From Sphingomonas sp. Y38-1Y (lineage in GTDB: Bacteria; Pseudomonadota; Alphaproteobacteria; Sphingomonadales; Sphingomonadaceae): a stretch of DNA of 64,000 nucleotides. Location: the NCBI RefSeq assembly GCF_032391395.1, contig NZ_CP135916.1, positions 2,635,001 to 2,699,000 of the forward strand. The letters are read 5' to 3'. Position numbers and translations under genes: made by a program. The notes under the pieces were generated by a model. It ran no database searches, was not told where the DNA came from, and worked only from the letters and a program-made list of their open reading frames with translations. Position 1 is the first letter of the stretch, and every line of letters begins with the position of its first letter. This document shows positions 3,688 to 55,266 of the stretch, one piece after another.

Positions 3688-6600
3688 CTAGCCGGCCAGC
3701 TGAAGTCGAGGCGCCATCAGCTCGGCTTCTCGAACACCGGGAATGGCCTGAACCGCCTCCACACGCTCGCCGTCGAGCAGGAAGTCCTCGCCCAGCGACA
3801 CCTCCGCCTCGCCCCCTTCGATCGGGGTGACCAGGCGCACACGCGCGCGCCCGCCGCGCTCGTCGCGCAGCAGCCGGGCGAGCGGTGCGATCGCCTCGAT
3901 ATCGTCGATCCAGACCGTGAGCACGAGCCGGGCATTGTTCGACAGCGTCTCGAACGCCTGGAGCGACTTGACCGTGACGCGCGGCGTGTCCTCGCCCGCG
4001 CGGCGATCGAGTTCGACCTGCATCAGCCCGCACCCGCCCGCGCGCGCCGCATCCTCCAGCGCCTCGGCGGCCATGTCGTCGAAGCAGGTCGCGACGACCT
4101 GGCCGCTGGCGTCCGAAAGCGTCGCCATCAGATAGCGATTGCCGCGTGCCGAAGTACGCCAACGCGCATCCTCGACCAGCGCAGCGATCGTCGCGCCGCC
4201 GCGCGCGCCTTCGGCGACCTGCACGCCGGCCAGCGCCGCGATCGGGCGGGCAGCATGGACCTTGGCGAGGTGCGCATAGCGGTCGAGCGGATGCGCGGAG
4301 AAATAAAAGCCGAACGCCTCCTTCTCGGCATTGATGCGCTCGGCGAGCGTCCAGGTGGCGCTGGCGGGAAGACGGATCGGCGGCTCGCTCGCCTCGCCCT
4401 CGCCGAACAGCCCGCCCTGCCCGCTCGCGCGCCCGGCATGGATGCGCTGCGCGGTGGCGAGGATCGTCTCGGCCGCGGCATGCACGCCCGGCCGGTTGTC
4501 GTTCATCGCATCGAACGCGCCGGCCGCCGCCAGCGTCTCGACCTGCCGCTTGTTGAGGAGGCGCGGATCGACGCGGCGCGCGAAGTCGTCGAGCGACTTG
4601 AACGCCCCCTTCGCCTTCCGCTCGGCAACGACCTGCTCCATCGCGCGCTCACCCACGCCCTTGAGCGCGCCGAGCGCATAGCGAACCGCAAGGCCATCCT
4701 CATGCGGCTGGACGTCGAACTCCGCCTCGCTCGCATTCAGGTCGGCGGGCAGGCAGGCGAAGCCCAGCCGCTTCATGTCGTCGACGAAGATCGCCAGCTT
4801 GTCGGTCAGCGCCAGGTCGAAGCACATCGAGGCGGCAAAGAACTCGTGCGGATGATGCGCCTTCAGCCACGCGGTCTGATAGGCGAGCAGCGCATAGGCG
4901 GCGGCGTGCGACTTGTTGAAGCCATAGCCGGCGAACTTGTCGATCAAATCGAACAGCTCGTTGGCCTTGGCCGCGGGGATCTGATTGTGCTCGGCGCAGC
5001 CGGTGACGAAGATCGCGCGCTGCGCGTCCATCTCCGCCTTCACCTTCTTGCCCATCGCGCGGCGGAGCAGATCAGCGCCGCCCAGCGAATAGCCGGCCAG
5101 GATCTGCGCGGCCTGCATCACCTGTTCCTGATAGACGAAGATGCCGTAGGTTTCCGCGAGGATCCCCTCGAGCAGCGGGTGCGGGTAGGTCACCGCTTCC
5201 CGCCCGTTCTTGCGCGCGCCGAAACTCGGAATGTTGTCCATCGGGCCCGGCCGATAGAGCGACACGAGCGCGATGATATCGCCGAAATTCGATGGCCGGA
5301 CGGCGGACAGCGTGCGCCTCATCCCCTCCGATTCCAGCTGGAACACGCCCACCGTATCGCCGCGCTGGAGCAGGGCGTAGGTCGCCTCGTCGTTCCAGGC
5401 GAGGCCGTCGAGATCGATCGTGACGCCCCGCTTGGCGAGCAGGTCCACCGCCTTGCGCAGCACGCTCAGCGTCTTGAGGCCGAGGAAGTCGAACTTCACC
5501 AGGCCCGCGCCCTCGACATATTTCATGTCGAACTGCGTGACGGGCATGTCGGACCGCGGATCGCGATACAGCGGGACGAGCTCGGCGAGCGGCCGGTCGC
5601 CGATGACCACGCCCGCCGCGTGGGTCGAGCTGTGGCGCGGCAACCCCTCCAGGTTCATCGCCAGGTCGAGCAGCCGGCGAACGTCGTCCTCGCGCTCATA
5701 GGCCTGCGCGAGCTCGCTGACGCCGTTCAGCGCACGCTTGAGGTCCCAGGGGTCGGTGGGGTGGTTGGGGACGAGCTTGGCAAGGCGATCGACCTGGCCA
5801 TAGCTCATCTGGAGCACGCGGCCGGTATCCTTCAGCACCGCGCGCGCCTTCAGCTTACCGAAGGTGATGATCTGCGCGACGGTGTCGTGGCCGTACTTGG
5901 CCTGAACGTATCGGATCACCTCGCCGCGGCGGGTTTCGCAGAAGTCGATGTCGAAGTCGGGCATCGACACGCGTTCCGGGTTGAGGAAGCGCTCGAACAG
6001 CAGGCCCAGCTTGATCGGGTCGAGGTCGGTGATGGTGAGCGCCCAGGCGACGGCGGAGCCCGCACCCGAACCACGGCCCGGACCCACCGGAATATCGTGG
6101 TCCTTGGCCCATTTGATGAAGTCGGCGACGATCAGGAAGTAGCCCGGGAATCCCATCGCGATGATGATGTCGAGTTCGTAGTCGAGCCGCGTCCAATATT
6201 CCTCGAACCGCGCGGCACGGGTGGGGTCATCCACCTCCACTCCGTTCGTTTCGAGCGAAGTCGAGAAACCGGAACCACCCGCATGGCCAGCCTGCTTCTC
6301 GTCTTCGCTCGGAGCGGACGGGGCATGGTCCGCCGCTTGCAGTTGCGAGGTGACTTCGCTCGAAACCAGGGCCGGCTGCGTGATCGCGGCCGCCTCGAGC
6401 TCCAGGATGCGCTCAAGCCGTGCCTTCAACCCCGCGTGCGCGCTCTCGCGCAGCATACGCGCCTCGCCCTCGCGGTCGCCGGCCAGGCTGGGGAGGATCG
6501 GCTTGCGCTTGGGCGCGGCGACGGCGCAGCGCTGCGCGACGACCAGCGTGTTGGCGATCGCCTCGGGCAAGTCGTCGAAGTCGGCCTTCATCACCGGGGC

Positions 6601-7335
6601 GGGCTTGATCCACGCCTCGGGCGAGGAACGCTTGCGGTCCTCCGACATGACATAGCTCGAATGCGCGATGCACAGCATGGCGTCGTGCGCGGCGTGGAAG
6701 TCGGCCTCGGCAAAGCAGCTCGGGTTGGTCGCGACGAGCGGCAGGTCGTTGGCATAGGCGAGGTCGATCAGCGCCGCCTCGGCCGCAACCTCGACCGCGT
6801 CGCCGCGGCGGCTGAGCTCGATGAACAGCCGGTCGGGAAACAGGTCCTGGAGCCGGTCGAGATAGGCAGCGGCATCCCCCGCCTGTTCCTCGGCCAGCAG
6901 CCGCGTCAGCCCGCCCTCGCCGCCCGCGGTCAGGCAGAGCAGGCCGTCGCTCCGCCCCGCCAGCGCCTCAAGCGGCACGTGTGCATCGAGCTCCACCGGA
7001 CGGCCGAGATGCGCCTCCGACACCAGCGCGCATAGATTGTCGTAACCGCGCTCGTCCTGCGCATAGAGCGACAGCCAGTCGAGGATCGGCGCGCGCCCGT
7101 CGGGCGTCCCCGGCCGCGCGACGCACAGCATCGTGCCGACGATCGGCTGCACCCCCTCGGCTTTGCACGCGTCGGAGAACGCCATCGCCGCATAAAGCCC
7201 GTTGCGATCGGTCAGCGCCACCGCCGGAAAGCCGAGCTTGCGCGCCTGCTTGGCAATCGCCTTCGGCTCGATCGCGCCGTCGAGCATCGTGTAGCAGGAG
7301 AAGACGCGAAGCGGGACGTAAGCGGCGTGGGACAT
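3688..7335 (-). CDS. dnaE: DNA polymerase III subunit alpha
   Basis: The replicative polymerase catalytic subunit, 1215 residues. The PHP domain occupies the N-terminus. The polymerase core has GPGRGSGAGSA and the catalytic PDFDIDF motif (Asp460 and Asp462), with a further Asp in KFDFLGLKTL; helix-hairpin-helix and OB-fold regions follow. It is about 55 residues longer than the E. coli protein. Most of the extra length sits at about residues 318-368, between the PHP domain and the palm, where the DNA is a palindromic repeat (see 6241-6370). rimO lies upstream on the same strand, beyond a 399-bp repeat-rich gap that holds a perfect DnaA box. Confidence 0.97.
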   Translation of the reverse strand: MSHAAYVPLRVFSCYTMLDGAIEPKAIAKQARKLGFPAVALTDRNGLYAAMAFSDACKAEGVQPIVGTMLCVARPGTPDGRAPILDWLSLYAQDERGYDNLCALVSEAHLGRPVELDAHVPLEALAGRSDGLLCLTAGGEGGLTRLLAEEQAGDAAAYLDRLQDLFPDRLFIELSRRGDAVEVAAEAALIDLAYANDLPLVATNPSCFAEADFHAAHDAMLCIAHSSYVMSEDRKRSSPEAWIKPAPVMKADFDDLPEAIANTLVVAQRCAVAAPKRKPILPSLAGDREGEARMLRESAHAGLKARLERILELEAAAITQPALVSSEVTSQLQAADHAPSAPSEDEKQAGHAGGSGFSTSLETNGVEVDDPTRAARFEEYWTRLDYELDIIIAMGFPGYFLIVADFIKWAKDHDIPVGPGRGSGAGSAVAWALTITDLDPIKLGLLFERFLNPERVSMPDFDIDFCETRRGEVIRYVQAKYGHDTVAQIITFGKLKARAVLKDTGRVLQMSYGQVDRLAKLVPNHPTDPWDLKRALNGVSELAQAYEREDDVRRLLDLAMNLEGLPRHSSTHAAGVVIGDRPLAELVPLYRDPRSDMPVTQFDMKYVEGAGLVKFDFLGLKTLSVLRKAVDLLAKRGVTIDLDGLAWNDEATYALLQRGDTVGVFQLESEGMRRTLSAVRPSNFGDIIALVSLYRPGPMDNIPSFGARKNGREAVTYPHPLLEGILAETYGIFVYQEQVMQAAQILAGYSLGGADLLRRAMGKKVKAEMDAQRAIFVTGCAEHNQIPAAKANELFDLIDKFAGYGFNKSHAAAYALLAYQTAWLKAHHPHEFFAASMCFDLALTDKLAIFVDDMKRLGFACLPADLNASEAEFDVQPHEDGLAVRYALGALKGVGERAMEQVVAERKAKGAFKSLDDFARRVDPRLLNKRQVETLAAAGAFDAMNDNRPGVHAAAETILATAQRIHAGRASGQGGLFGEGEASEPPIRLPASATWTLAERINAEKEAFGFYFSAHPLDRYAHLAKVHAARPIAALAGVQVAEGARGGATIAALVEDARWRTSARGNRYLMATLSDASGQVVATCFDDMAAEALEDAARAGGCGLMQVELDRRAGEDTPRVTVKSLQAFETLSNNARLVLTVWIDDIEAIAPLARLLRDERGGRARVRLVTPIEGGEAEVSLGEDFLLDGERVEAVQAIPGVREAELMAPRLQLAG
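6241..6370. repeat. palindromic repeat element inserted in frame inside dnaE
   Basis: Two 15-nt perfect inverted arms, GTTTCGAGCGAAGTC at 6248-6262 and GACTTCGCTCGAAAC at 6352-6366, bound a roughly 120-bp segment lying wholly within dnaE and keeping its frame. On the dnaE strand the arms encode LVSSEVTS and FSTSLETN at about residues 322-365, inside a low-complexity stretch rich in Ala, Pro, Ser, Glu and Gln that has no counterpart in the standard DnaE layout. The arms resemble TTCGAC-type intergenic palindromes known in sphingomonads. The arms and the frame are seen directly; insertion of a mobile palindrome is inference. Confidence 0.75.
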
Positions 7336-7734
7336 GGGCGGAGGCTAGGCTTTTGCGAAACGTCGGGGAAGGCGTCGGGGCGGGTTATCCACAGCATTGG
7401 CCCCACAATCCGTCGTCATCCCGGACTTGATCCGGGATCCCGCTTCCTTCGCCCGGCCCGGAAAAGAAGCGGTACCCCGGCTCAGAGGCCGGGGTTACGT
7501 GATGGAGGAGGGCGCTCGCCCTACCCCCAACCGTCACCCCGGACTTGTTCCGGGGTCCACCTGACCGCGAAGGCGAAGCTCGCCAACAAGCCGAAACGCC
7601 CGCCGCCCGGTGGACCCCGGAACAAGTCCGGGGTGACGACCATCGAACCCGTTCGTCCTGAGTAGCTGCTGAGCGAAGCCGAAGCAGCGTATCGAAGGAC
7701 CACCGCCGATGCTTCGATACGAAGCTCGAGCGGT
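7336..7734. repeat. repeat-filled intergenic region between rimO and dnaE
   Basis: No gene is seen here. It contains GTCATCCCGGACTTGATC at 7414, a small palindrome TACCCCGG...CCGGGGTTA near 7473-7497, a perfect 30-bp inverted repeat (7532-7561 with 7609-7638, beginning GTCACCCCGGACTTG), and a TTCGTCCTGAG-type palindrome at about 7648-7730. Palindromes of this kind are common in sphingomonad genomes. The large inverted repeat would form a strong hairpin in a rimO-dnaE transcript. Confidence 0.85.
7385..7393 (+). promoter_or_regulatory. perfect DnaA box upstream of dnaE
   Basis: TTATCCACA at 7385-7393 matches the high-affinity DnaA consensus exactly. It lies 50 bp upstream of the dnaE start codon, where it could bind DnaA-ATP and modulate dnaE transcription. 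It is a single box, so it is not an origin. A chance match is possible, though less likely in such GC-rich DNA. Confidence 0.5.
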
Positions 7735-12068: not shown

Positions 12069-12135
12069 CCGTTCGCCCTGAGCCTGTCGAAGGGCGTGCC
12101 CTAGACACGTGCTTCGACAAGCTCAGCACGAACGG
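12069..12135. repeat. TTCGTCCTGAGCCTGTCGAAG-type palindrome
   Basis: Two near-complementary 24-nt arms: CCGTTCGCCCTGAGCCTG... at 12069-12092 and ...AAGCTCAGCACGAACGG at 12112-12135. It lies between the convergent rpmB and phytase-like genes. Copies of the same family occur at 19300, 41842 and 55185. Confidence 0.85.
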
Positions 12136-19299: not shown

Positions 19300-19430
19300 C
19301 CGTTCGTCCTGAGCCTGTCGAAGCACGTGCCGCGAACGCATTGCCTGTGACACGTCCTTCGACAAGCTCAGGACGAACGGTGTGGAACGTATCGACCCCA
19401 AAACCTCCGTTCGTGCTGAGCCTGTCGAAG
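19300..19430. repeat. TTCGTCCTGAGCCTGTCGAAG-type palindromes, one and a half copies
   Basis: Arms at 19300-19323 and 19357-19380 form a perfect palindrome of the CGTTCGTCCTGAGCCTG type, followed by a lone third arm at 19407-19430. It lies between convergent dapE and the smr gene. Confidence 0.88.
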
Positions 19431-41841: not shown

Positions 41842-41908
41842 CCGTTCGTGCTGAGCCTGTCGAAGCACGTGTCCCAGGCACGCCCTTCGACAAGCTCAAG
41901 GCGAACGG
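41842..41908. repeat. TTCGTGCTGAGCCTGTCGAAG-type palindrome
   Basis: 24-nt arms at 41842-41865 and 41885-41908 (CCGTTCGTGCTGAGCCTG and ...AAGCTCAAGGCGAACGG). It lies between the ATP12 gene and the HPP gene. Confidence 0.85.
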
Positions 41909-55183: not shown

Positions 55184-55266
55184 GCGGTTCGCGCTGAGCC
55201 TGTCGAAGCACGTGTTCCAAAGCGCTTCGCCTGCGGCACGTCCTTCGACAAGCTCAGGACGAACGA
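55184..55266. repeat. TTCGCGCTGAGCCTGTCGAAG-type palindrome
   Basis: Arms at about 55184-55208 (CGGTTCGCGCTGAGCCTG) and 55243-55266 (CTTCGACAAGCTCAGGACGAA), between the TonB receptor start and cysQ. Confidence 0.82.

Follow-up and report, generated by a model that had tools for sequence, protein, structure and literature searches.

Short palindromic repeats of several families read in frame within the DnaE linker of Sphingomonas sp. Y38-1Y and other sphingomonads

The window, i.e. the whole stretch of DNA analysed here, covers 64,000 nucleotides of the Sphingomonas sp. Y38-1Y genome (hereafter G000) and carries the dnaE gene on its minus strand. In the dnaE product, Pfam recognised the PHP, DNA_pol3_alpha, finger and HHH_6 domains, and the score against the NCBIfam model NF004226 was above the cut-off of that model. 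The stretch of interest is an expanded linker containing three units of a repeat that we called S1 (S1, S2, F2, F3, F4, F6, F8 and F9 are repeat-family labels coined in this analysis). The features of the locus are as follows:

3688-7335, minus strand: dnaE, DNA polymerase III alpha subunit, an open frame of 1215 amino acids.
6241-6393, minus strand: expanded linker, residues 315-365, in the reading frame, containing three repeat units and mostly absent in relatives.
6242-6272: S1 unit A, complete, an inverted-repeat arm read on the coding strand as SGFSTSLETNG.
6291-6321: S1 unit B, the diverged partner of A in inverse orientation (81% complementary to A), read as PSAPSEDEK.
6352-6366: S1 unit C, the third unit, truncated and in inverse orientation to A, with the reading LVSSEV.

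The initial annotation had described two perfect inverted arms of 15 nt between the PHP domain and the polymerase core. These arms (6248-6262 and 6352-6366) are indeed 100% complementary, 89 nt apart and in frame in dnaE, and they lie where they had been placed, since Pfam assigns residues 9-176 to PHP and residues 376-619 to DNA_pol3_alpha, with the repeat stretch between both. The anatomy of the palindrome had to be amended: the arms are real, but they pair unit A with the truncated unit C, which is a perfect 15-nt complement to the core of unit A, whereas the standard dimer is formed by units A and B. This A/B pair (6242-6272/6291-6321, 31 nt, 81%, 18-nt spacer) is the best-matched long inverted repeat within dnaE, the other longer inverted pair of the gene (33 nt, 73%) being weaker, and it has the layout of the usual dimer of the S1 family. 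When A+B was folded as RNA, its stability exceeded that of 200 of 200 shuffled sequences (z -4.1). The exact S1 core is carried by unit A at 6251-6266 (G000:C1:2641251-2641266), and units A, B and C are all read in one protein frame pair.

Residues 315-365 of DnaE correspond to AAAITQPALVSSEVTSQLQAADHAPSAPSEDEKQAGHAGGSGFSTSLETNG. Upon alignment with E. coli DnaE, residue 308 of the query was matched with residue 305 and residue 369 with residue 310; across the stretch, the offset rises from 3 to 59 residues, which is the shift of about 59 residues reported at the outset. The linker, measured with its anchors, is 122 residues long, against a same-genus median of 68; for want of a close empty site to compare with, the boundaries given for the insert are approximate. 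The stretch was also looked up on a structure, as had been proposed for it. In an AlphaFold model of residues 1-599 (56 sequences, mean pLDDT 81.8), whose top fold matches are the Pol III alpha structures 2hnh, 5fkw and 5fkv, it maps to a segment (residues 327-363) with pLDDT <50 and without secondary structure, flanked by helices at residues 288-319 and 371-376. This suggests that the repeat stretch of about 50 residues is disordered, a low pLDDT not being proof of disorder.

When the S1 core, TCGAGCGAAGTCGAGA, was searched with at most one mismatch in the genome of Sphingomonas sp. Y38-1Y, it was found at 52 places, 26 on each strand, and the reversed-pattern control was found at 1 place. 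Forty-two of these places form 21 inverted pairs at ≤80 bp, for a mean of 0.02 pairs under random placement. The two units are in the same order in 19 of the 21 pairs, with gaps of 21-51 nt in 20 pairs and of 7 nt in one. Among 30 fetched units, 25 have a completely paired outer stem, with five stem types (covariation). A chance inverted repeat was ruled out by the reversed-pattern control (52 against 1) and by the inverted pairing (21 against 0.02). Eight long frames spanning an S1 copy, taken from 30 loci, were then scanned. Six of them have Pfam domains and two have none; in the six Pfam-bearing frames, the S1 copy is located outside the domains, ahead of the likely gene start. The S1 copies examined in these eight frames sit at gene borders, unlike the dnaE copy.

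As a separate observation, an S1 dimer is present at the N-terminus of a murB frame outside the window (L019; G000:C1, about 3030615-3030676), where it is read in frame as FASSEVEK...GFSTSLETN. It uses the same frame pair as the dnaE copy; a downstream GTG start could make this dimer extragenic.

The comparison of related DnaE proteins had been set beforehand as a test of the proposal that an intergenic palindrome had invaded dnaE. From 61 same-genus genomes drawn evenly, our own included, 59 linkers were obtained (G007 and G012 gave none), nine of which reach at least 78 residues with anchors. The extra segment is absent from most of them, and a conserved family insert was rejected on this basis. 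Together with the dispersal of the arm sequence in the same genome, this result supports the invasion of dnaE by an intergenic palindrome. A frame artefact was discarded as well, given the open dnaE frame and the other inserts carried by relatives.

Strict repeat cores were detected in 5 of the 59 linkers: those of G000 and G010 (S1), G031 (F2), G022 (F3) and G003 (F4). Exact counts in the corresponding genomes were 38 (G000) and 120 (G010) for S1, 77 for F2 in G031, 393 for F3 in G022 and 43 for F4 in G003, with reversed controls of 0, except for F3 (1). Similarly, S2 (GAGCTTGTCGAAG) is contained in the DnaE linkers of L103 (Sphingomonas gilva) and L167 and occurs 20 and 143 times in the respective genomes (controls 2 and 1). 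Repeat families are also present where the linker is devoid of them, S2 for example being found 121 times in G000 (control 5). The linker insert of G019 is composite; by BLAST, it has five copies in G031, two in G022 and only itself in G019. F2 and F9 may be related families. In G038 and G027, which are the nearest relatives, the linker is another one, of 94 residues. The flanks of the dnaE insert are too diverged from those of relatives for a target-site duplication to be read, a close empty site being absent, and neither a clean empty site nor a target duplication was found for the dnaE S1 insert among the same-genus relatives compared.

Other repeats were observed in the window. The S2 repeat (GAGCYTGTCGAAG) occurs at 12080-12124, 19311-19430, 41853-41897 and 55196-55255 as inverted pairs and one extra copy, with 10 matches for 0.1 expected. 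Large palindromes lie between dnaE and the next gene (7412-7640); one of them has arms of 38 nt at 7532-7569 and 7601-7638 (92%), and a copy related to it is found at 7412-7440.

The distribution of the repeats along dnaE was followed in 110 loci (L031-L060 and L090-L169), from which 4 without a usable frame and 6 duplicates were subtracted, leaving 100 distinct dnaE genes; by the anchors used, L130, L157, L166 and L168 had no usable dnaE frame or linker. All 19 strict core matches, belonging to 12 genes, fell within the variable linker, which amounts to 9,741 nt; the remaining 342,294 nt had none. Under an even distribution, the probability of this concentration is 2.5e-30, or 2e-19 by gene, both values overstating the significance because dnaE genes are related. 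With looser cores of S1, S2, F3 and F4, 6, 8, 4 and 16 matches were obtained inside the linker and 0 outside, whereas the 8-base cores of F2 and F8 gave 30 and 10 matches outside versus 16 and 6 inside. In 80 titled records, where genes were called crudely, the other genes (454 kb) contained 1 deep match and 3 edge matches, and the 158 kb of remaining (intergenic) DNA contained 28. Fourteen matches fell in dnaE-assigned frames: 12 of them, from 8 loci, are linker matches, and the other two (L121) are upstream of the real start.

A smaller second in-frame repeat site, which the strict cores did not detect, is located near DnaE residue 876 (window numbering). There, the clade formed by L117, L121 and L153 has in common a palindromic dimer with the reading SPAKAGAQ...GSPPSRGNN; in L167, the alignment shows a palindromic stretch of another kind.

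At the protein level, 216 DnaE sequences were surveyed, of which 214 had a readable linker. Repeat-derived peptides were found in 44 of these 214 linkers (45 by pattern, minus P0037, a false match in a short linker, minus P0112, which was weak, plus P0038, added by eye); as the set was assembled from proteins resembling the DnaE of the window, this count is no estimate of prevalence, for which 5/59 is the fairer figure. Outside the linker, repeat-peptide signatures were encountered 3 times in 237,375 residues, as PAKAGAQ, the peptide of the residue-876 site. A tree was computed with FastTree after removal of the linker; the distribution of the families on it requires no fewer than 37 changes, and that of presence or absence at least 27, such changes not separating gain from loss. 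Sister entries carry different families: L090 (F2) and G010/P0007 (S1), P0050 (S1) and L037 (F4), P0035 (S1) and P0021 (S2), and P0018 (S1) and P0012 (F3). In addition, L035 (F3) adjoins L098, which has no repeat. Twenty linkers of at least 85 residues (85-121) contain no recognised repeat and are possibly eroded old inserts; they are those of L032, L038, L041, L092-L095 and L097 and of 12 proteins.

The reading frame of the inserts was also considered. The S1 consensus, read by eye, contains no stop in any of its six frames. All 19 S1 arm matches that were kept (11 tree entries) use the frame pair FVSSEVEK / STSLETNG, and the other four S1 frame patterns gave one match only, the false one of P0037. 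For S2, five frames were searched; three of them yielded peptide matches (11, 7 and 5) and the other two gave 0. In all 13 inserts for which DNA was available, the frame used has a lower net charge than either of the other two sense frames. The mean net charge per 100 residues is -7 in the used frame, +20 and +17 in the other sense frames and +5, -1 and +21 in the antisense frames, these figures comparing the frames of the inserts with one another and including a few native flanking residues. Stop codons are absent from the other sense frames in 8 and 4 of the 13 inserts, and the bias towards the least basic frame is in part due to frame openness.

The likeness to Rickettsia palindromic elements (RPE) put forward in the initial annotation holds as an analogy, but membership was not borne out: the RPE1 model (TIGR01045), which matched 4 of 385 genomes, had 0 matches in G000, and an NCBIfam scan of 7 sphingomonad DnaE proteins, with E up to 1, returned no RPE-named model. 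The analogy is that Rickettsia palindromic elements and their Wolbachia counterparts are, like S1, palindromic repeats retained in frame in conserved genes; in-frame insertion into a conserved protein gene, an RPE trait, is what S1 displays in dnaE. In contrast, the sphingomonad units are about 30 nt long and in dimers, and several unrelated families occur at one site. Passages of PMC3767692 report RPE-4 or RPE-6 in the DNA polymerase III alpha of R. japonica, R. conorii, R. africae and R. felis, and leave open whether the repeats of Rickettsia genes, DnaE included, reflect a hotspot or a common origin of RPE-4/6/7. The DnaE linker is also long in L177 and L178, which belong to an RPE1-bearing alphaproteobacterial family where a DnaE match was obtained in 8 of the 9 genomes read for the linker. 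The names listed in one DnaE protein search (Holosporales, Odyssella, Paracaedibacter and general ones) were not Rickettsia.

Passages of PMC3733652 describe intragenic REPs, many of which lie in genes for replication and repair, with R. conorii DnaE as one case; genes of the sphingomonad order, e.g. in S. alaskensis, are concerned too, and different REPs occur at about one site in Xanthomonas recB. Since intragenic REPs and RPEs in DnaE are reported, repeats inside genes are an already known phenomenon. S1 resembles REP/REPIN sequences by its short hairpin units, inverted dimers, high copy number and mostly intergenic placement (checked for 8 frames). It differs from the GTAG and CGTC superfamilies of REPs by a CGTTC head, present in 29 of 30 units; as for a terminal REP tag, GTAG or its complement was seen in 2 of the 30 units and CGTC in the 5-prime flank of none. 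Judging by the described layout, F8 would resemble CGTC-1.

Unlike REPINs accompanied by a RAYT, S1 is found in a genome, G000, where PF01797 (Y1, RAYT-type transposase) has no match. This model matched 2 of the 12 genomes searched, G010 and the genome of L148. The Y1 transposase gene of G010 (L170) matches PF01797 in two pieces, and no S1 unit is present within its 3.3-kb locus; G010 has the highest S1 count (120) among 11 genomes searched. Finally, in-frame fusions of the MITE type are known for ERIC, Correia and YPAL (passages of the review PMC2229807). As for S1, these are small non-autonomous repeats with open frames joined into genes, but S1 units are shorter. The flanks in dnaE are too diverged for a target-site duplication to be read, and the search for a mobilising enzyme or parent element, with PF01797, gave no match in G000. 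Excerpts of PMC10969869, PMC5656822 and PMC12306157 also belong to the prior work. In the openly licensed literature searched, no paper was found on repeats in sphingomonad DnaE, and neither the recurrent use of this linker by several families nor its frame bias came up.

The explanation that we consider probable is that an S1 dimer and a truncated unit entered dnaE and that in-frame polar insertions survive in a length-tolerant linker. S1, a dispersed palindromic repeat, would be non-autonomous and move in trans, and both S1 and the unrelated families would insert widely, insertions within genes being mostly purged, presumably. In dnaE, the S1 insert is part of the open frame; it would be translated as read and form a disordered, acidic linker from PHP to the polymerase core. 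If the linker tolerates length changes in a near-neutral way, in-frame insertions encoding a polar or acidic peptide would therefore persist, then erode and get replaced.

The repeated acquisition at one site, the use of the least basic sense frame and the 20 additional long linkers without recognised repeat could also mean that a long acidic disordered linker helps the polymerase, for instance by PHP/core spacing, and that repeats are kept as a supply of peptide. This seems unlikely to us, for most linkers are short in enzymes that resemble each other in other respects, and they differ between sisters, so that a long linker is not needed in general, and the avoidance of a basic peptide near DNA suffices to explain the frame bias. 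Protein tolerance might also be secondary to a hotspot at the DNA level, the repeats targeting a sequence or structure in the dnaE stretch. Their density in the linker (19 in 9.7 kb) is higher than in intergenic DNA (28 in 158 kb, in different samples), but at least five unrelated families occur at the site and the native linker sequences are diverse, which makes such targeting quite improbable.

A single old insertion, inherited by all and since diverged, is an alternative raised for Rickettsia RPE-4/6/7 in passages of PMC3767692. G010 and P0007 do have one S1 insert in common, and one clade shares its insert at the residue-876 site. This scenario is nevertheless hardly credible for the linker, where sister entries carry different families and the tested inserts, unrelated in sequence, match families abundant in their own genome; for S1, F2, F3, F4 and S2, a single ancestral insertion is contradicted by the own-genome counts.

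Beyond the survival of in-frame insertions in a tolerant linker, it is conceivable, though we regard it as doubtful, that the linker serves as a permanent landing pad for in-frame insertions, to which at least five unrelated families have contributed polar, disordered peptide with turnover between sisters, and where the choice of frame would reveal selection at the protein level. The recurrent use of the linker by several unrelated repeat families is beyond what the initial annotation could see. With sisters that carry different repeats, the sphingomonad data represent the independent-insertion hotspot type of site in a replicative polymerase, and they show a route from noncoding repeats to protein and which frames survive. 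As filled and unfilled alleles of one essential enzyme exist naturally, tolerance versus benefit is directly testable. If the linker is functional, selfish intergenic repeats would repeatedly supply the chromosomal replicase with raw material for a regulatory linker.
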